A model generated the notes under the pieces. The model worked only from the letters and a program-made list of their open reading frames with translations, was not told the origin of the DNA and ran no database searches. DNA of 64,000 nucleotides, from assembly GCF_011039205.1 (NCBI RefSeq), contig NZ_JAAKEL010000001.1:744001-808000 (forward strand), given 5' to 3'. Of this stretch, positions 12,418 to 24,978 are shown in pieces (within the stretch, counting starts at the first letter, position 1; every line of letters starts with the position of its first letter). Both the position numbers and the translations under genes were made by a program. This DNA comes from Dysgonomonas sp. ZJ279. Lineage in GTDB: Bacteria > Bacteroidota > Bacteroidia > Bacteroidales > Dysgonomonadaceae.

Positions 12418-14898
12418 ATGCTATTGTCCGATTTAAAAACAGGTGAAAAGGGAATTATCGTCAAAGTGAATGGCAGCGGAGCCTTCCGTAAACGTATCCT
12501 TGAGATGGGTTTTATTAAGGGTAAAACTATCAAGGTTATATTAAATGCGCCACTTAAAGATCCCATCAAATATAAAATAATGGATTATGAGGTATCACTT
12601 CGTAGAAGTGAGGCTCGATTAATCGAAATTGTTTATCCCGATATAAATAAGAAAGAAGAAGTGAAGTCAGTTCATAATTCTTTTAATATCTCTACTTCGG
12701 ATGAGCAAGAACCTATATCTCCGATCGCAAAAAAAACGACGAATAGTAAAAAAGTGATAACTGTAGCCCTCGTTGGTAATCCCAATGCAGGTAAAACTTC
12801 ATTGTTTAATATAGCTTCGGGTGCCCACGAACATGTAGGTAACTATGGTGGTGTGACAGTCGATTCGAAAGAAGGTAAGTTTAAACATGGTGGATATACT
12901 TTCCGTATAGTCGACCTTCCTGGTACATACTCATTGTCAGCATATACTCCGGAGGAGCTTTATGTGCGTAATCATATTGTAGAAGAAAAACCTGATGTTG
13001 TTATAAATATTGTAGCTTCATCTAATCTGGAACGTAATCTCTATTTGACTACAGAGTTGATAGATATGGAAGTGCCTATGGTGATTGCTCTTAATATGTA
13101 CGACGAGTTGGAGCAGGGTGGTAGCGAATTTAATTATCAGAAGCTGTCTAAAATGATAGGCATCCCGATGATTCCCACTGTTGCTAAAACAGGTGTCGGC
13201 ATAGGGGAATTGTTCGATGCAGCTATTCGCATCTATGAAGATAAAGAACCTATTGTCCGTCGCGTGCATATATATTATGGTAATACGGTAGAGAATGCTA
13301 TAAGTAAACTGAATATTCAATTAGAGAAATTAAAAGACATAAAGTTGCTTTTTCCTCGTCGCTATGTTTCAGTTAAATTATTGGAGAAGGACAAGGATGT
13401 CGAAAAATATGTAAACTCATTTCAGAATAATAAAGAATTGTTTGCGCTTCGGGATGCTGAAGTGAAAAATATAGAAGATACATTAAAAGAAGATACAGAA
13501 TCAGTCTTGACCGATGCCCGGTATGGTTTTGTGGCAGGAGGACTGAAAGAAACTTTAAAAGGAAAAACGAACGAATCGGATGCTACAAGTCTTATTGATG
13601 CCGTAGTTACTCATAAATACTTAGGCTTCCCGTTATTCTTCTTCTTTATGTGGGTTATGTTCGAATGTACATTCCGTTTGGGTGGCTATCCGATGGAGTG
13701 GATCGAAAGCGGTGTCGAGTTATTAGGTAACTTTGTTCGAGGGGTGATGTCTGATGGCATGCTCAAAGATTTGATTGTTGATGGTATAATAGGTGGAGTT
13801 GGTGGTGTTATCGTATTTCTTCCTAACATATTAATATTATACGCCTTTATATCCTTTATGGAAGACTCAGGTTATATGGCTCGGGCAGCATTTATTATGG
13901 ATAAGGTGATGCATAAAATGGGCTTGCATGGCAAATCGTTTATCCCACTTGTTATGGGATTCGGATGTAATGTCCCGGCTATACTGGCTTCGCGTACTAT
14001 AGAAAGTCGCAATAGCCGTATGATAACAATGCTCATAAATCCGTTTATGTCGTGTAGTGCCCGTTTGCCAGTGTATCTGCTGTTTGTGGGTGTTTTCTTC
14101 AAATCATACGCTAGTCTTGTTCTCTTTGGTCTTTATGTGGTGGGTATCTTGCTGGCTGTCATCTCAGCTCGCCTATTTAAGAGATATCTCTTCCCTGAAG
14201 AGGATACTCCTTTCGTGATGGAACTTCCGCCTTACAGAATACCTACGGTTCGTTCTGTATCAATACATATGTGGGATAAGTCGAGACAGTATTTAAGAAA
14301 GATGGGAGGGGTAATTTTGGTTGCTTCCATTATTATCTGGTTCTTAGGTTATTTTCCTCAGAATGAAGAAAGAGAGACCCAGTTTGATAACCAGATTGCT
14401 TTGGTAGAAACTCAATTCAATCAAAATACGATAAGTGAAACAGAGAAAGATGATCAAATAGAGCAAATTGAAGATCTGCGTAATATAGAACATCAGGAGA
14501 ATTCATATATCGGGCGTATTGGTAAAACGGTAGAACCGGTTATGCGTCCTTTAGGGTTTGATTGGAAGATAAGTGTAAGCTTGCTTTCAGGTATGGCAGC
14601 CAAGGAGGTTGTTGTTAGTACTTTAGGTGTTCTCTATACCGGTGATCCAGATAATCAGGAATCATTGAAGGCTCGTATAAGTAATGATGTTCAACCGGAT
14701 GGAGCATTAACGTTTACCCCTTTAGTTGTTCTGAGTTTATTACTCTTTGTTTTGATATACTTCCCTTGTGTGGCAACGATCGTGGCTATTAAAGAAGAAT
14801 CCGGGTCGTGGAAATGGGGGGCATTCAGTATTATCTATACAACGGGCTTAGCCTGGATCATATCATTTGCCGTTTTTCAGATTGGTAGTCTCTTCTGA
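12418..14898 (+). CDS. feoB: Ferrous iron transporter, FeoA-FeoB fusion
   Basis: An 826-residue fusion typical of Bacteroidales. Residues 1-75 are a FeoA SH3-like domain (MLLSDLKTGEKG, ILEMGF). A linker to about 115 is followed by the FeoB G domain with G1 GNPNAGKTS (about 121-129), G3 DLPGTYSL and G4 NMYD. From about residue 400 the membrane core has the gate motifs GFGCNVPAI and the late PCVATI, which line the Fe2+ path. It imports Fe2+ across the inner membrane and depends on GTP hydrolysis. A FeoB-associated Cys-rich protein lies downstream at 19956, separated from it by a SusC/SusD pair. Confidence 0.95.
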   Translation: MLLSDLKTGEKGIIVKVNGSGAFRKRILEMGFIKGKTIKVILNAPLKDPIKYKIMDYEVSLRRSEARLIEIVYPDINKKEEVKSVHNSFNISTSDEQEPISPIAKKTTNSKKVITVALVGNPNAGKTSLFNIASGAHEHVGNYGGVTVDSKEGKFKHGGYTFRIVDLPGTYSLSAYTPEELYVRNHIVEEKPDVVINIVASSNLERNLYLTTELIDMEVPMVIALNMYDELEQGGSEFNYQKLSKMIGIPMIPTVAKTGVGIGELFDAAIRIYEDKEPIVRRVHIYYGNTVENAISKLNIQLEKLKDIKLLFPRRYVSVKLLEKDKDVEKYVNSFQNNKELFALRDAEVKNIEDTLKEDTESVLTDARYGFVAGGLKETLKGKTNESDATSLIDAVVTHKYLGFPLFFFFMWVMFECTFRLGGYPMEWIESGVELLGNFVRGVMSDGMLKDLIVDGIIGGVGGVIVFLPNILILYAFISFMEDSGYMARAAFIMDKVMHKMGLHGKSFIPLVMGFGCNVPAILASRTIESRNSRMITMLINPFMSCSARLPVYLLFVGVFFKSYASLVLFGLYVVGILLAVISARLFKRYLFPEEDTPFVMELPPYRIPTVRSVSIHMWDKSRQYLRKMGGVILVASIIIWFLGYFPQNEERETQFDNQIALVETQFNQNTISETEKDDQIEQIEDLRNIEHQENSYIGRIGKTVEPVMRPLGFDWKISVSLLSGMAAKEVVVSTLGVLYTGDPDNQESLKARISNDVQPDGALTFTPLVVLSLLLFVLIYFPCVATIVAIKEESGSWKWGAFSIIYTTGLAWIISFAVFQIGSLF

Positions 14899-15289: not shown

Positions 15290-18200
15290 ATGAAAAAAAG
15301 AGTGATGTTGATTTTATCCTGCTTATTTTTAAGTATAGGATTTATTGCGGCACAAATAAAGGTCTCTGGGGTCGTTGTTGACCAAATGGGAGAGGCTGTT
15401 ATTGGTGCATCGGTTGTAGTGAAAAACACAACAGTCGGAACTATTACTGACGTGGATGGTAATTTTACTATCAGCGTGCCAGCTAATAGGAATACCTTAG
15501 TCTTCGCTATAATAGGTATGAGGACAAAAGAAGAAGCGGTATCCCCAAACATGAGAGTTGTCATGGAAGAGGATGCAGCTTTATTGGATGAAGTAGTAAT
15601 TACCGGATATGGTGTTACAAAAAAGAGGGCATTTACAGGTGCTGCATCTTCGCTTGATGCTACTACCATTGCCTCTAGAACTGATGCTAATCCGATAAAA
15701 GCATTGGATGGTATAATACCGGGACTTCAGATGAATATTGCATCTGGACAGCCAGGAGCTCCTGCTAATATATACATTCGTGGACGCAATTCGATTAATT
15801 CAGGTACTCAGCCATTATATATAATAGATGGTGTGCCTATTAATGCAGATCCAATGGGTATTCGTAAAAGTGAAGGGTCAGAAATAAGCCCTTTATCTAC
15901 GCTGAATGCTTCGGATATCGAGAATATCACAGTGCTAAAAGATGCGACAGCGACTTCTATATATGGAGCGAGAGCTGCAAATGGTGTAATTGTAATTACA
16001 ACCAAAAGAGGTTCGGGCGGCCGTACATCAGTAAACTTTACTGCAAAAATGGGATATGAAGCCAGACCTCGTGTACCTAAAAATTATAAAACTGTAAATG
16101 CTGCAGAATATACAGAATTGTATGTTGAATCAATGCAAAATGATTATAGAGTAAATGGAGCTGACTCCGGTACTGCTTATTATCTTGGGAATGATTATCC
16201 ATTGACAGCAGAAGGTATGAGGCAGTTTTTGTATGACGATTCTGAAGCTGTTGCAGGTACAGATACAGATTGGTTTAAAGAAGTAACTAGAACTGGCTTT
16301 GTTCAAGAATATGGTCTTGATATACAAGGTGGAGGTGAATCTTCTACTGCTGCAAAATACTTTTTATCATTTAATTATTTATCAAACGAAGCATTTATAA
16401 GAGGAAAGGATTTATCTCGTTACTCTCTTCGTCTAAATTTAGATCAAGCACCTTCTAAATTTGTAAGATTTGGTGTTAATACAAATTTATCACTGACCGA
16501 AACTAATATGGGTGCTGGAGGAGGATATTTTTCAGATCCAGTTACTTTGGCATACCAATTGTCTCCTCTTTATCCTGTGAAAGATGAAAAGGGAGATTGG
16601 TTTTTTAATCAGACGGGTTATAATCCAGTTGCTCAACGTAGCGAACTTGGAGATAAAACTCAAGGAAAACAATATCGAATGTTGATATCTCCTTATGTTC
16701 AATTATATCTGCCTAAAGACTTGGTATTTCAATCGAAATTAGGTGTTGACCTCTATTTCTTAGATGAATTTGGATATTGGTCTTTTCTTCAACCACAAGG
16801 AGCATCTATAAGAGGTTTAGGTGAAAATGCTAACTCAAGAAATCTTTATATTACTTGGACTAATACATTGAATTACTCTAAAACATTTGGTGAGAAGCAT
16901 CATCTTAACGTTCTTTTAGGTCAGGAAATTCAAAAGACTAGTATGAAAGAGGCTTATTTGGAGGCTACTAACTATGCAGTTGATTATTTGACCGAAGTTG
17001 AACTAGCATCAGTACCAAGCACTGCAAGTACTACACGGAATGATGTGGCATTAGCTTCATTTTTTGCAAATGCAGAATATGACTATATGAGTAAATACTA
17101 TCTTTCTGGTAGTTTTAGATATGACGGATCTTCTCGTTTCGGTTCGAACCATAGATGGGCTTCATTTTGGTCAGTCGGTGGTAAATATAGACTTACAGAA
17201 GAACAGGCAGTGAAGGATGCAACAGAAAGTTGGCTTGATAATGCTACATTGAGAATGAGTTATGGAACAACAGGTAACCAGGAAGTTGGAAGCCAAGACA
17301 GTAATGTCGAAGATAATAGCCCTCTTTATGCATCACGTAATTTATATTATTTTGGCCGTAATTATAATGGTCTTCCCGGAAGTGGTCATCTACAGTGGGG
17401 AAATCCGGATTTGAAATGGGAGCAAACCAATAAATTCAATGTGGGAGTTGATTTTAGTTTCTTGAAAAGATTCACAGTTGAGGTTGATTACTATAATCAT
17501 AAAACAACAGATATGGTATTCAATGTGCCTATATCTATGGTCACAGGATTACAATATTATTTGACGAATATCGGAGAATTATCTAATCACGGATTTGAGG
17601 TATCATTAAATGCTAATATAATCAGAAGTAAAGATTTGGATTGGAGTGTTCTTTTGACTGCTGCTAAAAATAAAAATGAGGTTAAGAAATTAAGTACAGA
17701 TGCTCCAATTGAGACTGCTACTACCATCATAAAAGCCGGTAGTCCTCTTAATTCATTCAAAATGAAAGAATGGGCTGGTGTTGATCCAGAAACAGGAAAC
17801 CCTACTTGGTACTTAAATGCAGAAGGGGATGAGACTACAACCAGTTATGCTAGAGCTGCAAAAAGAGAATTGGGTGATGCTAATCCCACTTTACAAGGAG
17901 CTTTTTCTACAACGCTGAGATGGAAAAATTTCGATTTGTTACTTCAACTAAATTATTCTTTAGGAGGAAAAATTTATGGAAACCATTTGCGCTATGACGA
18001 ACAAGTAGGAAGTAGTGCATGGGATACATTTACCAAATATGTATATGATAACAGATGGCAAAAACCGGGTGATATAACAGACGTACCTAGTATGATGTTT
18101 TTAGATGACCGTAACTCGAACGCTGCTTCTTCAAGGTTCTTGATGGATGGAGACTTTTTGAAAATCCGCGCTTTGGCATTCGGATATAATATACCATCTG

Positions 18201-18382
18201 AAATACTTAAGTCGGCAAAGATTGCTAACGCTAGAGTGTTCGTGAATGCAGACAATATTTATACATTTGCAAAATCTAATTATAGAGGTTTTGACCCTTC
18301 TGGTGTTGCTGCAAATGGTATCCAATGGTGGAACTATCCGACTCCAAGAACTGTATTATTTGGGTTGACTTTAGGTTTTTAA
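15290..18382 (+). CDS. SusC/RagA-family TonB-dependent outer-membrane transporter
   Basis: A 1030-residue transporter. A signal peptide (about 1-22, ending IAAQ) is followed by a carboxypeptidase-D regulatory-like domain (about 24-100; VSGVVVDQMGEAVIGASV). Next come the DEVVITGYG segment typical of SusC proteins, a plug domain (about 110-230, with LYIIDGVPI and TSIYGARAANGVIVITTKRG), and a large beta-barrel ending in a C-terminal Phe (LGLTLGF). It takes up a nutrient across the outer membrane using TonB energy, with the SusD partner 21 bases downstream as lid. There are no glycoside hydrolases, sulfatases, peptidases or sigma/anti-sigma genes next to it, so the substrate is unknown. Its position inside the feo locus may be a hint. 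Confidence 0.95.
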   Translation: MKKRVMLILSCLFLSIGFIAAQIKVSGVVVDQMGEAVIGASVVVKNTTVGTITDVDGNFTISVPANRNTLVFAIIGMRTKEEAVSPNMRVVMEEDAALLDEVVITGYGVTKKRAFTGAASSLDATTIASRTDANPIKALDGIIPGLQMNIASGQPGAPANIYIRGRNSINSGTQPLYIIDGVPINADPMGIRKSEGSEISPLSTLNASDIENITVLKDATATSIYGARAANGVIVITTKRGSGGRTSVNFTAKMGYEARPRVPKNYKTVNAAEYTELYVESMQNDYRVNGADSGTAYYLGNDYPLTAEGMRQFLYDDSEAVAGTDTDWFKEVTRTGFVQEYGLDIQGGGESSTAAKYFLSFNYLSNEAFIRGKDLSRYSLRLNLDQAPSKFVRFGVNTNLSLTETNMGAGGGYFSDPVTLAYQLSPLYPVKDEKGDWFFNQTGYNPVAQRSELGDKTQGKQYRMLISPYVQLYLPKDLVFQSKLGVDLYFLDEFGYWSFLQPQGASIRGLGENANSRNLYITWTNTLNYSKTFGEKHHLNVLLGQEIQKTSMKEAYLEATNYAVDYLTEVELASVPSTASTTRNDVALASFFANAEYDYMSKYYLSGSFRYDGSSRFGSNHRWASFWSVGGKYRLTEEQAVKDATESWLDNATLRMSYGTTGNQEVGSQDSNVEDNSPLYASRNLYYFGRNYNGLPGSGHLQWGNPDLKWEQTNKFNVGVDFSFLKRFTVEVDYYNHKTTDMVFNVPISMVTGLQYYLTNIGELSNHGFEVSLNANIIRSKDLDWSVLLTAAKNKNEVKKLSTDAPIETATTIIKAGSPLNSFKMKEWAGVDPETGNPTWYLNAEGDETTTSYARAAKRELGDANPTLQGAFSTTLRWKNFDLLLQLNYSLGGKIYGNHLRYDEQVGSSAWDTFTKYVYDNRWQKPGDITDVPSMMFLDDRNSNAASSRFLMDGDFLKIRALAFGYNIPSEILKSAKIANARVFVNADNIYTFAKSNYRGFDPSGVAANGIQWWNYPTPRTVLFGLTLGF

Positions 18383-18403
18383 CTATTTTAAAAGAAATTG
18401 ATA

Positions 18404-19822
18404 ATGAAAAAAATATCTAAATTTATATTTATAGCTGCATTATCCCTGTCTGTAGTATCTTGTGATTCTTTTTTAGATGTGGATAACTTTCAGGAGATAC
18501 CGGCAGAAGAGGCTTATGCAACACCTCAGGATGTTACTAATGGTATGGTTGGTGCTTATTGGTCGCTGGGTACATATCGTTTTTATGGAAGATCGGTTGT
18601 TGCTGTAGGCGATATGGGAGCTGATATTTCAGTTGCTAACCCGTCTACGTCACATCTTTATACAATCAGTACATATACTTTTACTGAAACTGATACCTAT
18701 CTTAAGGAAATGTGGTATTATGGTTATAAAGTTGTAGACGGTGCATTTAAAACAATCGAGGGAGGAAAAGCCCTTTTGGAAAAAGGCGCCAGAGAATCAG
18801 ATCAACCGGCTTTATATAGTGCAATTTCTCAATCTTATTCGTTAAGTGCATTATCTTATTTTACACTTGTAAATTTATATGGACTTCCTTATCAGGCTGG
18901 AGGTAATAATACCCAAATAGGGGTTCCGGTATTGAAAAAGGCATTATTGCCTTTTGAAGATATTAAGAGAGCTACAGTAGAAGAGGTGTATATACAAATA
19001 TTGAATGATATAGCGAATGCAAAAGAATATTTGAATAAGCTTGATGATGGCACGAAGGCAAGTATAAATCAGTTTTTCTTTAATGAAGCTGCTATTTATG
19101 CTTTAGAGGCTCGCGTACATCTTTATATGGGGCGATATGCCAAAGCTATTGTAGCAGCACAGAAAGCGATTGACTTAAGGTCATCGGGTGATGTGTCAAA
19201 TGAATTTTATATAAAAATGTGGTCGTCAGTAGCAATAACAGATGAAGATATTTTTACTATATCTAAAACTGAGGCAGATAACCTTTCTGCTAACTCTTTG
19301 AATACATTATATGATACTTATAGGGCTGCAATAAGCTCGACTCTAAAGTCTTACTTTAAGAGTACGGATATACGACTTGGCTTGATTTCGGGAACTCACC
19401 CGAAGAAGTTTGACGGTTTGCCATCTTCATCATCGACAAGTAATATTCCGGTTTTCAGAAAATCAGAAATGTATTTGATTATTGCGGAATCACAAGCCCG
19501 TTTAGATCAGATAGCTCCTGCAAAAACTGCTTTATTATATACAGCTAAACGTAATACCGCTATTCAGACAGTTGCAGATTTGCCTTCGACGAAGGCGGAT
19601 TTACTTAAGTTTATTGAGGAGGAAAGAATCCGTGAATTTTTCCAAGAAGGTCACAGATGGTATGAAGCAAGAAGAACTAATAGTAAAATTACTGTAAATG
19701 TTGCGGGTGCAGGATTGTTTGATGTAGCTAAATTTGTTTATCCGCTACCTGCAGACGAAATAAATGCGACGGGAGGAGTTTCTGAGCAAAATGATGGATG
19801 GATCGATAATCTACCACATTGA
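18404..19822 (+). CDS. SusD/RagB-family nutrient-binding lipoprotein
   Basis: A 472-residue outer-membrane lipoprotein. The lipobox (SVVSC, Cys at about residue 21) follows a short hydrophobic leader. TPR-like helical SusD regions and the C-terminal RagB/SusD block EFFQEGHRWYEARRT follow. The frame also allows a TTG two codons earlier at 18398; the ATG at 18404 gives the standard MKK signal. It caps the SusC barrel encoded immediately upstream. A strong terminator at 19851-19880 closes the two-gene operon. At 472 residues it is somewhat shorter than many polysaccharide-binding SusD proteins, which tend to exceed 500. Confidence 0.93.
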   Translation: MKKISKFIFIAALSLSVVSCDSFLDVDNFQEIPAEEAYATPQDVTNGMVGAYWSLGTYRFYGRSVVAVGDMGADISVANPSTSHLYTISTYTFTETDTYLKEMWYYGYKVVDGAFKTIEGGKALLEKGARESDQPALYSAISQSYSLSALSYFTLVNLYGLPYQAGGNNTQIGVPVLKKALLPFEDIKRATVEEVYIQILNDIANAKEYLNKLDDGTKASINQFFFNEAAIYALEARVHLYMGRYAKAIVAAQKAIDLRSSGDVSNEFYIKMWSSVAITDEDIFTISKTEADNLSANSLNTLYDTYRAAISSTLKSYFKSTDIRLGLISGTHPKKFDGLPSSSSTSNIPVFRKSEMYLIIAESQARLDQIAPAKTALLYTAKRNTAIQTVADLPSTKADLLKFIEEERIREFFQEGHRWYEARRTNSKITVNVAGAGLFDVAKFVYPLPADEINATGGVSEQNDGWIDNLPH

Positions 19823-19850
19823 TGAATGTAACTCCTTAATTATATAAATA

Positions 19851-19884
19851 AAACGGCAGAATCAAGTGATTCTGCCGTTTTTTG
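19851..19884. terminator. Strong hairpin terminator after SusD
   Basis: A perfect inverted repeat of 14 bp (19851-19864 with 19867-19880) with an A-run on one side and a T-run on the other. Confidence 0.9.
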
Positions 19885-19955
19885 TATCTTTTAAACCAAT
19901 TTAACCCATTATTCTCTTTATCATACATATCTTTGTTATATAAAATTACAATACA

Positions 19956-20111
19956 ATGCAGGAAATAATTGTTATTATAATAGGAGTCATTGTTGCTCTG
20001 TTAGTTATATATAAAGTATATGGATTCTTCTTTTCGAAGAATGAACAAAAGGGTAATTGTGGATGTTCTAATTGTGGATGTAGTACTAATAAAAAAAGTA
20101 AAATAGTCTAA
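19956..20111 (+). CDS. FeoB-associated Cys-rich membrane protein
   Basis: A 51-residue protein starting at the ATG of 19956. A single N-terminal membrane segment (residues about 4-24) is followed by a short basic stretch and a cysteine cluster, GNCGCSNCGCS, with four Cys. This is the layout of the FeoB-associated Cys-rich membrane proteins found next to feoB, proposed to assist Fe2+ delivery or metal sensing. Here it is about 5 kb from feoAB because a SusC/SusD pair and two terminators intervene, so it is probably transcribed on its own. It matches the family in size and composition. Confidence 0.8.
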   Translation: MQEIIVIIIGVIVALLVIYKVYGFFFSKNEQKGNCGCSNCGCSTNKKSKIV

Positions 20112-20116
20112 ATTCA

Positions 20117-20148
20117 TTTGTTCTTTCAAAATATTCTATATACATTTG
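20117..20148 (+). promoter_or_regulatory. Consensus Bacteroidetes promoter for a probable small RNA
   Basis: -33 TTTG (20117-20120), a 20-base spacer and -7 TACATTTG (20141-20148), so both boxes match the consensus. It predicts transcription from about 20155 into the structured segment ending at 20388. Confidence 0.65.
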
Positions 20149-20154
20149 AATTAA

Positions 20155-20388
20155 GGAAAAGAAAAAGCTTAAGTCGTATTGATCGATTGGGAAACTCATC
20201 AATGAATACAACTACCGAGACAAGCACTTGGTTCTAATGGCGGGCCACACCTTCGGGTTGCTTTGCGCAGTGGATTACAAAGGTATCAAGGCACTCAAAT
20301 CCTGTTTTTAGGAGTTTCGGCTATATCCATCAATGCGGCTTTTCTATACGGGCAGGTTGTCTGAAAAGACGGCCTGCTTTTGTTTTGC
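20155..20388 (+). ncRNA. Probable structured non-coding RNA, unassigned
   Basis: A segment of about 234 bases bounded by a consensus promoter and a terminator, with visibly higher GC than the flanks. Local structures seen: a CCAC...GTGG closing stem around 20244-20273 enclosing ACC-UUCG-GGU (a UUCG tetraloop hairpin) and a TGC-TTT-GCG hairpin; an AAATCCT/AGGA(G)TTT hairpin near 20297-20317; and the terminal 11-bp stem (20352-20362 with 20367-20377, two G-U pairs, GAAA loop) followed by TTTTGTTTT. I do not recognise it as tmRNA, RNase P or SRP RNA. No convincing reading frame with a start codon crosses it. Confidence 0.55.
20352..20387 (+). terminator. Terminator with GAAA tetraloop
   Basis: An 11-bp stem (GCAGGTTGTCT with AGACGGCCTGC, two G-U pairs), GAAA loop, then a T-rich tail. 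It ends the putative RNA that starts near 20155. Confidence 0.8.
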
Positions 20389-20569: not shown

Positions 20570-21199
20570 ATGGAAACGTTAGAAAAAATAACTGCAGAAA
20601 AGCTTCTTAGTATCAAAGCTGTTAAGCTACAACCGGCTAATCCTTTTACTTGGGCATCAGGCTGGAAGTCACCTATTTATTGCGATAATAGAAAGCTAAT
20701 TTCTTATCCTAAAGTACGCACATTTCTTAAAATAGAATTGAGCCGTCTTATTATAGAGAATTTTCCTGATGTTGATGCCATTGCAGGAGTTGCTACAGGT
20801 GCAATTGCTCCGGGAGCATTGGTTGCCGATGCTTTAGGTTTGCCATTTGTTTATATACGCGCAACACCTAAAGATCATGGTTTGGAGAATCTGATCGAAG
20901 GTGATCTGAAGTTAGGCAGTAAAGTAGTAGTTGTAGAAGACTTAGTATCTACGGGAACTAGTAGTTTAAAAGCAGTAGATGTAATTCGTAAAGATGGTTC
21001 AGAAGTAATAGGTATGGTTGCTAACTTCACTTATGGTTTTCCTATTGCAACCGAGAGGTTCGAACAAGCCAAAGTAAAATTAATCACACTAACCGATTAT
21101 GATGCAATTCTCGATGAAGCATTGCGCATCGATTATATAGCTGAATCTGATTTAGAAACATTGCAAGAATGGCGAAAAGCGCCAGCTGATTGGAAATAA
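20570..21199 (+). CDS. pyrE: Orotate phosphoribosyltransferase
   Basis: A 209-residue enzyme that converts orotate and PRPP to OMP, the fifth step of de novo UMP synthesis. The PRPP-binding motif VVVVEDLVSTGTSS lies at about residues 120-133, and the N-terminal part has TWASGWKSPIYCDNRKL, typical of PyrE. Length matches the family. It leads a probable operon with an SRPBCC protein, argH and serB; the gap to the next gene is 9 bases. Confidence 0.95.
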   Translation: METLEKITAEKLLSIKAVKLQPANPFTWASGWKSPIYCDNRKLISYPKVRTFLKIELSRLIIENFPDVDAIAGVATGAIAPGALVADALGLPFVYIRATPKDHGLENLIEGDLKLGSKVVVVEDLVSTGTSSLKAVDVIRKDGSEVIGMVANFTYGFPIATERFEQAKVKLITLTDYDAILDEALRIDYIAESDLETLQEWRKAPADWK

Positions 21200-21208
21200 A
21201 ATTTATTG

Positions 21209-21649
21209 ATGGCAGAATTTACAAGTGAGATAAAAACCATTCCGCATTCAGATGTGGATGTTTACACAGTGCTTTCAGATTTAAATAATCTGGAGCTTGC
21301 AAAAGATAGAATGCCTCAAGATAAAATTAAAGAGTTTACATTCGATAAAGATTCATGTACGGTATCTGTAGATCCGGTAGGGAAAGTTAGATTTGTTGTT
21401 GTCAGCAGAGAACCTAATTCAACTATTAAGTTCGAAGCAGAACAAGTCCCTTTTGGTGTGAATATGTGGATCCAATTAAAGGCTTCGTCTGAGAATGAAA
21501 CAAAGTTGAAGCTGACAATTAAAGCAGAGCTTAGCCCGTTTTTGAAGCCGATGGTTTCAAAACCATTACAACAAGGATTGGATAAAGTTGCTGATTTATT
21601 GGCAACGCTGCCATATGATACTATTTTAAATCAAGGAACAATCGAATAA
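21209..21649 (+). CDS. SRPBCC (START-like) family protein
   Basis: A 146-residue protein with the helix-grip pattern of the SRPBCC superfamily: an N-terminal strand, a V-YTVLSDLNNL helix, alternating strands and a long C-terminal amphipathic helix (KPLQQGLDKVADLLATL). These proteins bind hydrophobic ligands; the ligand is unknown. A TTG one codon earlier (21206) is possible, but I use the ATG at 21209. It sits tightly between pyrE and argH, whose ATG follows the stop codon directly. This pyrE-SRPBCC-argH order may be a family trait, but I cannot check that here. Confidence 0.7.
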   Translation: MAEFTSEIKTIPHSDVDVYTVLSDLNNLELAKDRMPQDKIKEFTFDKDSCTVSVDPVGKVRFVVVSREPNSTIKFEAEQVPFGVNMWIQLKASSENETKLKLTIKAELSPFLKPMVSKPLQQGLDKVADLLATLPYDTILNQGTIE

Positions 21650-24372: not shown

Positions 24373-24978
24373 TTAGCAACTGCATCCAGAACCGCAACCG
24401 CCACCCTCTGATGAGCCACAGCCACAACCGGCAGCTTCTTCTTCACCGTCGCCACATCCACATCCAGAACCGCATCCACATCCTCCACCTTGAGGTGCAA
24501 ATAATGCAGCAATTTCTTCAGGAGTAGATTCTCTTACTGAAAGAACATTGCCGGAGAAGTTTAATGTTTCGCCAGCTAACGGGTGATTGAAGTCCATAAC
24601 AACCACATCTTCTTTAACTTCTACAACTGAACCGTTCAGGCGGTTTCCATTTGTATCCATCATAGGAACTGTATTGCCTTCGAAAATAACTTCTTCGTTC
24701 AATACACCATCTACTTCGAAAATATTGCGGGGAAGATCTACAATGTGTTCGTCGTCATATTCACCATATGCTTGTTCAGGAGTAAGCACGAAATTGAAAG
24801 AATCACCTTCGGCTAATCCGTCCACGTTTTTCTCGAATGCTTCAAGCATAGATCCTGTACCAAAGATAAATTCTAGTGGTGCTTCAACTGTTGCTCTTTC
24901 CATCAATTCACGCTCTTCACCTTCACCTACGTTTAAATCGTAAGATAAAGAGACAAATTTATTTGTAGAAATTTTCAT
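24373..24978 (-). CDS. SlyD-like FKBP peptidyl-prolyl isomerase with Cys-rich tail
   Basis: A 201-residue SlyD-type protein. The FKBP parts (LSYDLNVGEG, PLEFIFGTGSMLEAFEKNVDGL, TPEQAYGEYDD) frame an insert-in-flap chaperone domain from about residue 70 to 130. The last 38 or so residues are a Gly/Cys-rich tail with nine cysteines. SlyD tails bind Ni2+ and other metals and deliver them to metalloenzymes; in E. coli the tail is His- and Cys-rich, while here it is almost purely Cys/Gly/acidic. Cytoplasmic. A short palindrome (GACCTT-ATA-AAGGTC, 25010-25024) lies just upstream of the gene. Confidence 0.88.
   Translation of the reverse strand: MKISTNKFVSLSYDLNVGEGEERELMERATVEAPLEFIFGTGSMLEAFEKNVDGLAEGDSFNFVLTPEQAYGEYDDEHIVDLPRNIFEVDGVLNEEVIFEGNTVPMMDTNGNRLNGSVVEVKEDVVVMDFNHPLAGETLNFSGNVLSVRESTPEEIAALFAPQGGGCGCGSGCGCGDGEEEAAGCGCGSSEGGGCGSGCSC

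Follow-up and report, generated by a model that had tools for sequence, protein, structure and literature searches.

The region 20117-20388 of the window (the whole 64,000-nucleotide stretch of Dysgonomonas sp. ZJ279 DNA analysed here) encodes, with a probability that we put at about 95%, the 6S RNA (ssrS type) of this Dysgonomonas. 6S RNAs are near 180-200 nt in length and are built from a closing stem, a large central bubble and a terminal stem-loop. The 175-nt body of the Dysgonomonas RNA has this size and each of these parts, and it is homologous to an accepted 6S family, RF01685 (6S-Flavo).

Searched over its full length against Rfam 15, the window returned a single match over a curated cut-off: RF01693 ('Bacteroidales-1 6S-Bacteroidales RNA suggested'), which covers 20172-20346 on the forward strand, spans the whole model (1-179 of 179) and scores 136 bits against a gathering cut-off of 60. 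The RNA is an already known, catalogued housekeeping RNA and not a new class. A reading made from the sequence alone had proposed a new, unlisted structured RNA class and had suggested a covariance-model search of Rfam as a check: that search matched RF01693, a family in print since 2010 and carrying the Rfam label of a suggested 6S RNA. Its first report, in an excerpt of PMC2864571, places it among 104 candidate RNAs. The match is useful as annotation in that it locates the 6S RNA in the genome of Dysgonomonas sp. ZJ279.

The transcription unit

The promoter, structured RNA and terminator recognized by the sequence-only reading are real, the RNA body being some 175 nt long. The unit comprises:

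20117..20148, + strand: promoter of the sigma-ABfr type (-33 TTTG at 20117-20120, 20-base spacer, -7 TACATTTG at 20141-20148), conserved upstream of homologues
20172..20346, + strand: predicted 6S RNA body (RF01693, model positions 1-179; 136 bits, cut-off 60)
20350..20379, + strand: intrinsic terminator, from sequence and fold (11-bp stem 20352-20362/20367-20377, GAAA loop, then a T-run)

Folding of the block gives -69.5 kcal/mol (z -2.83), a value equalled by two of 200 dinucleotide shuffles. A protein-coding reading was rejected: there is no open reading frame of at least 50 aa between 20112 and 20569, and homologues are separated by indels.

The promoter consensus was taken from PMC7366714, as given in an excerpt of that paper. 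Within the window alone the motif occurs at chance level (four exact matches versus 3.32 ± 2.07 in shuffles), and it is among homologues that the arrangement proves to be kept. A perfect TAnnTTTG is the best site in 37 of 38 upstream regions (the remaining one, L024, scores 5/6), a set that includes two near-duplicate pairs, L010/L013 and L018/L019; in L033, L035 and L040 the best site is perhaps not the true one. TTTG lies exactly 20 bases before the best -7 site in 27 of the 38. The mean promoter score of the 38 regions is 7.87, as against 5.91 ± 0.10 (maximum 6.13) over 200 rounds of Markov resampling, which nonetheless still yields a -7 box of at least 5/6 in 21.3 of the 38 regions on average. 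From the spacing, transcription is predicted to start near 20155.

The 11-bp terminator stem with its GAAA loop and two G-U pairs (20352-20377) is present as described. Visual inspection of 38 folded loci shows a hairpin, differing in sequence from locus to locus, after the RNA in 34; it was not seen in L027, L034 and L036, and L039 ends at a contig edge. The two G-U pairs had been read as a sign of selection on RNA. They sit in a terminator whose sequence differs among relatives, and therefore provide no evidence for a special RNA class.

Closing stem and rod structure

In the Rfam consensus of RF01693 neither end is paired, over about 54 bases on the 5′ side and about 52 on the 3′ side. In contrast, the ends of the Dysgonomonas RNA and of its relatives form a covarying closing stem, a long-range pairing overlooked by the sequence-only reading. 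With this stem added the RNA is, judged from aligned sequences, a 6S rod composed of closing stem, central bubble and terminal stem-loop:

20172..20179, + strand: closing stem P1 outer, 5′ arm, paired to 20333-20340; not drawn in the Rfam consensus
20191..20197, + strand: closing stem P1 inner, 5′ arm (GAAACTC); pairs with 20312-20318
20198..20225, + strand: central bubble, 5′ strand; unpaired in the consensus, with a putative template role by analogy
20226..20291, + strand: terminal stem-loop; P2 20226-20235/20282-20291 plus two inner pairs
20245-20248/20270-20273, + strand: P3 (CCAC/GTGG) in the terminal stem-loop, from Rfam consensus and covariation
20249-20258, + strand: UUCG hairpin in the terminal stem-loop, from sequence
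20294..20305, + strand: central bubble, 3′ strand (CTCAAATCCTGT); little or no variation across 35 sequences of the order
20312..20318, + strand: closing stem P1 inner, 3′ arm (GAGTTTC); pairs with 20191-20197
20333..20340, + strand: closing stem P1 outer, 3′ arm; pairs with 20172-20179

The structure was evaluated on an alignment, A1, of 35 RF01693 copies from the order. Loci that nearly or wholly repeat another entry were omitted (L013 nearly L010, L019 nearly L018; L029 and L032 being L004 and L001 retrieved again), as were L039, truncated by a contig end, and L041-L047, whose scores do not reach the Rfam cut-off. Covariation across the Bacteroidales, a further check that had been suggested, is clear: 22 of the 31 pairs have changed on both sides. 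Paired cells amount to 95.7%, versus 36.2-50.3% for slid partners, and none of 500 shuffles reached as high; the structure was predicted from A1 itself, so that the paired-cell share is biased toward it and more weight belongs to the compensatory changes.

All eight pairs of the outer closing stem have changed on both sides, with 98.2% of cells paired in the 35 sequences. The inner stem of 7 bp is paired in 98.4% of cells, five of its seven pairs being invariant, and thus leans little on covariation. In the terminal stem-loop, 10 of the 12 pairs of helix 3 and three of the four pairs of helix 4 have changed on both sides; the UUCG hairpin and the CCAC/GTGG stem, both noticed earlier from the sequence, lie within this element.

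A third hairpin, AAATCCT/AGGAGTTT, fared less well. It can be drawn, and six of its seven pairs form in at least 32 of the 35 rows, with one compensatory change; the loop-side pair, however, forms in just 8 of the 35 homologues, and a slid register and shuffles come close to the same degree of pairing. Local folds of the region are at the level of shuffles (median z 0.16 in the 35 Bacteroidales rows, -0.06 in all 53 rows), and z falls below -2.5 in 5 of 13 flavobacterial rows, where the anchor of L068 is probably misplaced. The GAGTTT of this hairpin has another partner, GAAACTC at 20191-20197. The slid register, the shuffles and the Bacteroidales local folds led us to reject the hairpin as an element under selection of its own.

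The covariation-supported closing stem, which the RF01693 model is without, is one of two modest additions made by the present analysis, the other being the model-based evidence, set out below, that RF01693 and RF01685 are the same RNA. A literature search found no title on either the closing stem or a link to 6S-Flavo; Wehner 2014, reportedly a paper on 6S RNA and the survey cited for the phylum, fell outside the scope of that search.

Distribution and relation to 6S-Flavo

By DNA similarity the RNA was found in 23 of 24 other congeners, and all 19 congeneric loci scanned exceed the RF01693 cut-off. Within the family (Dysgonomonadaceae) RF01693 is present in 77 of 81 sampled genomes, including all 56 that combine high completeness with low contamination, and at one copy per genome except in two. 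Each of these two carries a pair of copies on one strand, separated by a few hundred bases (G159:C7 140971-141846 and G165:C2 306125-306893), possibly a tandem duplication of the 6S RNA. Seven named genomes, among them Phocaeicola vulgatus and Bacteroides congonensis, have one copy each; they were picked for holding the core pattern and gauge copy number, not prevalence.

Across the order we employed two further covariance models: R1, with the closing stem, was built from Bacteroidales copies only, without flavobacterial sequence, and R2, a control, used the same 35 sequences but had no closing stem. At a rough E of at most 0.001, RF01693 matched 27 of 119 genomes in the order sample (20 over its cut-off), R2 34 and R1 41, each set being nested in the next; in 78 of the 119 no copy was detected, even with R1 at that threshold. 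Seven of the 14 genomes that R1 adds to RF01693 were also reached by R2, that is, without the closing stem: about half of the extra matches come from the wider sequence set (or calibration) and about half from the closing stem.

Applied to 198 Bacteroidota genomes, R1 gave 20 matches, one of which is the window itself. Sixteen of the 19 others coincide with matches to RF01685 in place and strand, and at these shared loci R1 extends 21 to 34 bases past the RF01685 match on each side. Only six of the 16 pass the RF01685 cut-off; ten do not. R2 gave 17 non-self matches and retained all 16 shared loci, and the homology with 6S-Flavo is therefore independent of the closing stem. At genome scale R1 missed five of 21 6S-Flavo genomes, three of them over the RF01685 cut-off; searched directly on the 6S-Flavo loci it matched all 21, the weakest at 27.8 bits. 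Within the order sample, 14 genomes have a weak 6S-Flavo match, none over the cut-off, and five of the 14 share the locus with R1. Weaker R1 matches lie at three further 6S-Flavo loci in the order, and of 17 weak loci R1 matched 16 and gave no match at L082. Three genomes of a single genus (G275, G310 and G393) have full-length 6S-like R1 matches and no RF01685 match; R2 retains only that in G310.

The same comparison bears on the closing stem. R1 outscores R2 by 5.6 to 17.2 bits at 15 of the 16 shared loci and falls below it at one (G252, 45.7 versus 49.6); in the window itself R2 is slightly above R1 (185.9 versus 182.5). The gain at the shared loci speaks for the closing stem in RNAs outside the set from which the model was built. 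With rows fitted to R1, seven of the eight outer-stem pairs have changed on both sides in the 21 6S-Flavo loci (99.4% of cells paired), and all eight in a mixed set of 25 (98.5%, likewise fitted). The flavobacterial alignment, A3, holds 13 of the 21 loci; four of the five loci missed by R1 at genome scale are left out of it.

RF01693 and RF01685 look, from their sequences, like one RNA, and the R1 comparison ties the two Rfam families together. They share the R1 loci, an AAACUCA 5′ element and a GAGUUU 3′ arm, and differ in that the terminal stem-loop is shorter in flavobacterial rows. The Rfam outputs show no clan for the two, and RF01685 itself has no match in the Dysgonomonas sp. ZJ279 genome. 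Nor does the canonical 6S model, RF00013, match anywhere in that genome: the RNA has diverged beyond this model. An RF00013 match was not counted as required, 6S-Flavo too being a 6S family that Rfam lists apart from RF00013. In general architecture the Dysgonomonas RNA is the same as the RF00013 6S RNAs of E. coli and B. subtilis, and it presumably shares their function. RF00013 does match one of the 119 genomes in the order sample, G075 (85% complete, 3% contaminated); this is possibly contamination, because the R1 match in that genome lies on a different contig.

Neighbouring genes and proposed mode of action

Upstream of the RNA lies a FeoB-associated (Feo accessory) gene at 19956-20111, which matches FeoB_associated (Pfam PF12669) with an E of 0.00026, below the family cut-off. 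The next gene downstream starts at 20570 and encodes a phosphoribosyltransferase domain (PF00156); we take it to be pyrE. Within the genus this setting is stable: all 19 loci have the Feo accessory gene upstream, and 18 of the 19 have pyrE downstream. Beyond the genus neither gene was found within about 1.5 kb in any of 18 loci (L039 being without a downstream flank). The RNA is therefore an independent unit, and its placement beside the Feo accessory gene, which had been thought worth remarking, is incidental. Like RF01693 in general, it appears from its sequence to be an independent RNA resident in the Bacteroidales.

An independent unit with its own promoter and terminator is also what would be expected of an unlisted sRNA acting in trans on mRNAs by base pairing, as proposed by the sequence-only reading. 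The trans-acting and structured character of that proposal is borne out by promoter, terminator, covariation and the absence of the neighbours beyond the genus. As a whole, however, we regard it as very improbable: the whole-length match to RF01693 refutes 'unlisted', and the covarying rod structure, the presence of the RNA in every good-quality family genome sampled and the homology to 6S-Flavo all speak against mRNA pairing. Slimmer still are the chances that the RNA is a cis-regulatory leader of pyrE or belongs to the 3′ UTR of the Feo accessory gene. The constancy of both neighbours among congeners could be cited for these readings, but the RNA is conserved in the loci outside the genus where the neighbours were not found, and a terminator stands between it and pyrE.

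For the 6S RNA that we favour, the most likely mode of action is promoter mimicry of the 6S type, by which RNA polymerase would be sequestered. In 6S RNA the bubble mimics melted promoter DNA and binds RNA polymerase carrying the primary sigma factor, release following once the 5′ bubble strand has been copied into pRNA. By analogy, the bubble of the Dysgonomonas RNA would imitate an open promoter and occupy RNA polymerase together with the primary sigma factor, and transcription from many promoters would fall when nutrients run out. With nucleotides back, the polymerase would copy the 5′ bubble strand into short pRNAs, and this synthesis would bring about its release. Refolding in other 6S RNAs is driven by pRNA; a comparable role could be imagined for the AAATCCT/AGGAGTTT hairpin, which would compete with the inner closing stem.

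An excerpt of PMC7366714 reports, from dRNA-seq, that Bacteroides thetaiotaomicron has a 6S RNA together with pRNAs of two classes. Judging from relatives that bear RF01693, such as Phocaeicola vulgatus and Bacteroides congonensis, this 6S RNA is presumably a copy of RF01693.

A broader and distinctly tentative proposal, which we think probably does not hold in full, is that Bacteroidales-1 and 6S-Flavo constitute one Bacteroidota-wide 6S RNA with a closing stem, in which the near-invariant 3′ bubble strand (CUCAAAUCCUGU, replaced by CUAAACYUGU in part of the flavobacterial rows) mimics the unusual TAnnTTTG element that sigma ABfr reads, promoter and 6S RNA having co-evolved in the phylum. Scored against TAnnTTTG at an offset of -15, the 3′ bubble ranks 5 of 122 in the Bacteroidales and ties for first of 122 in 13 flavobacterial rows; both results are weak, with only about three of six positions matching, and the scoring of the 3′ bubble strand revealed no convincing -7 box.

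Several further features of the window were recorded. A TonB-dependent receptor gene and a SusD-family gene (15290-19822) separate the FeoB-associated gene from a FeoA-FeoB fusion gene (12418-14898); of 19 congeneric loci, 8 likewise show a SusD-like gene just upstream. The SusD gene is followed by an inverted repeat of 14 bp that has a T-run on the + strand (19850-19881) and is terminator-like on both strands; weak Rfam matches at 19801-19905 (E 0.25-0.75, all below cut-off) cover this inverted repeat and were discarded. Immediately after the pyrE-like gene comes an ORF of 147 aa (21206-21649) with no Pfam match at E ≤ 0.001. On the reverse strand, at 24373-24978, the translation of an ORF ends in a Cys/Gly-rich, metal-binding-like tail; the product presumably resembles a SlyD-type peptidyl-prolyl isomerase.
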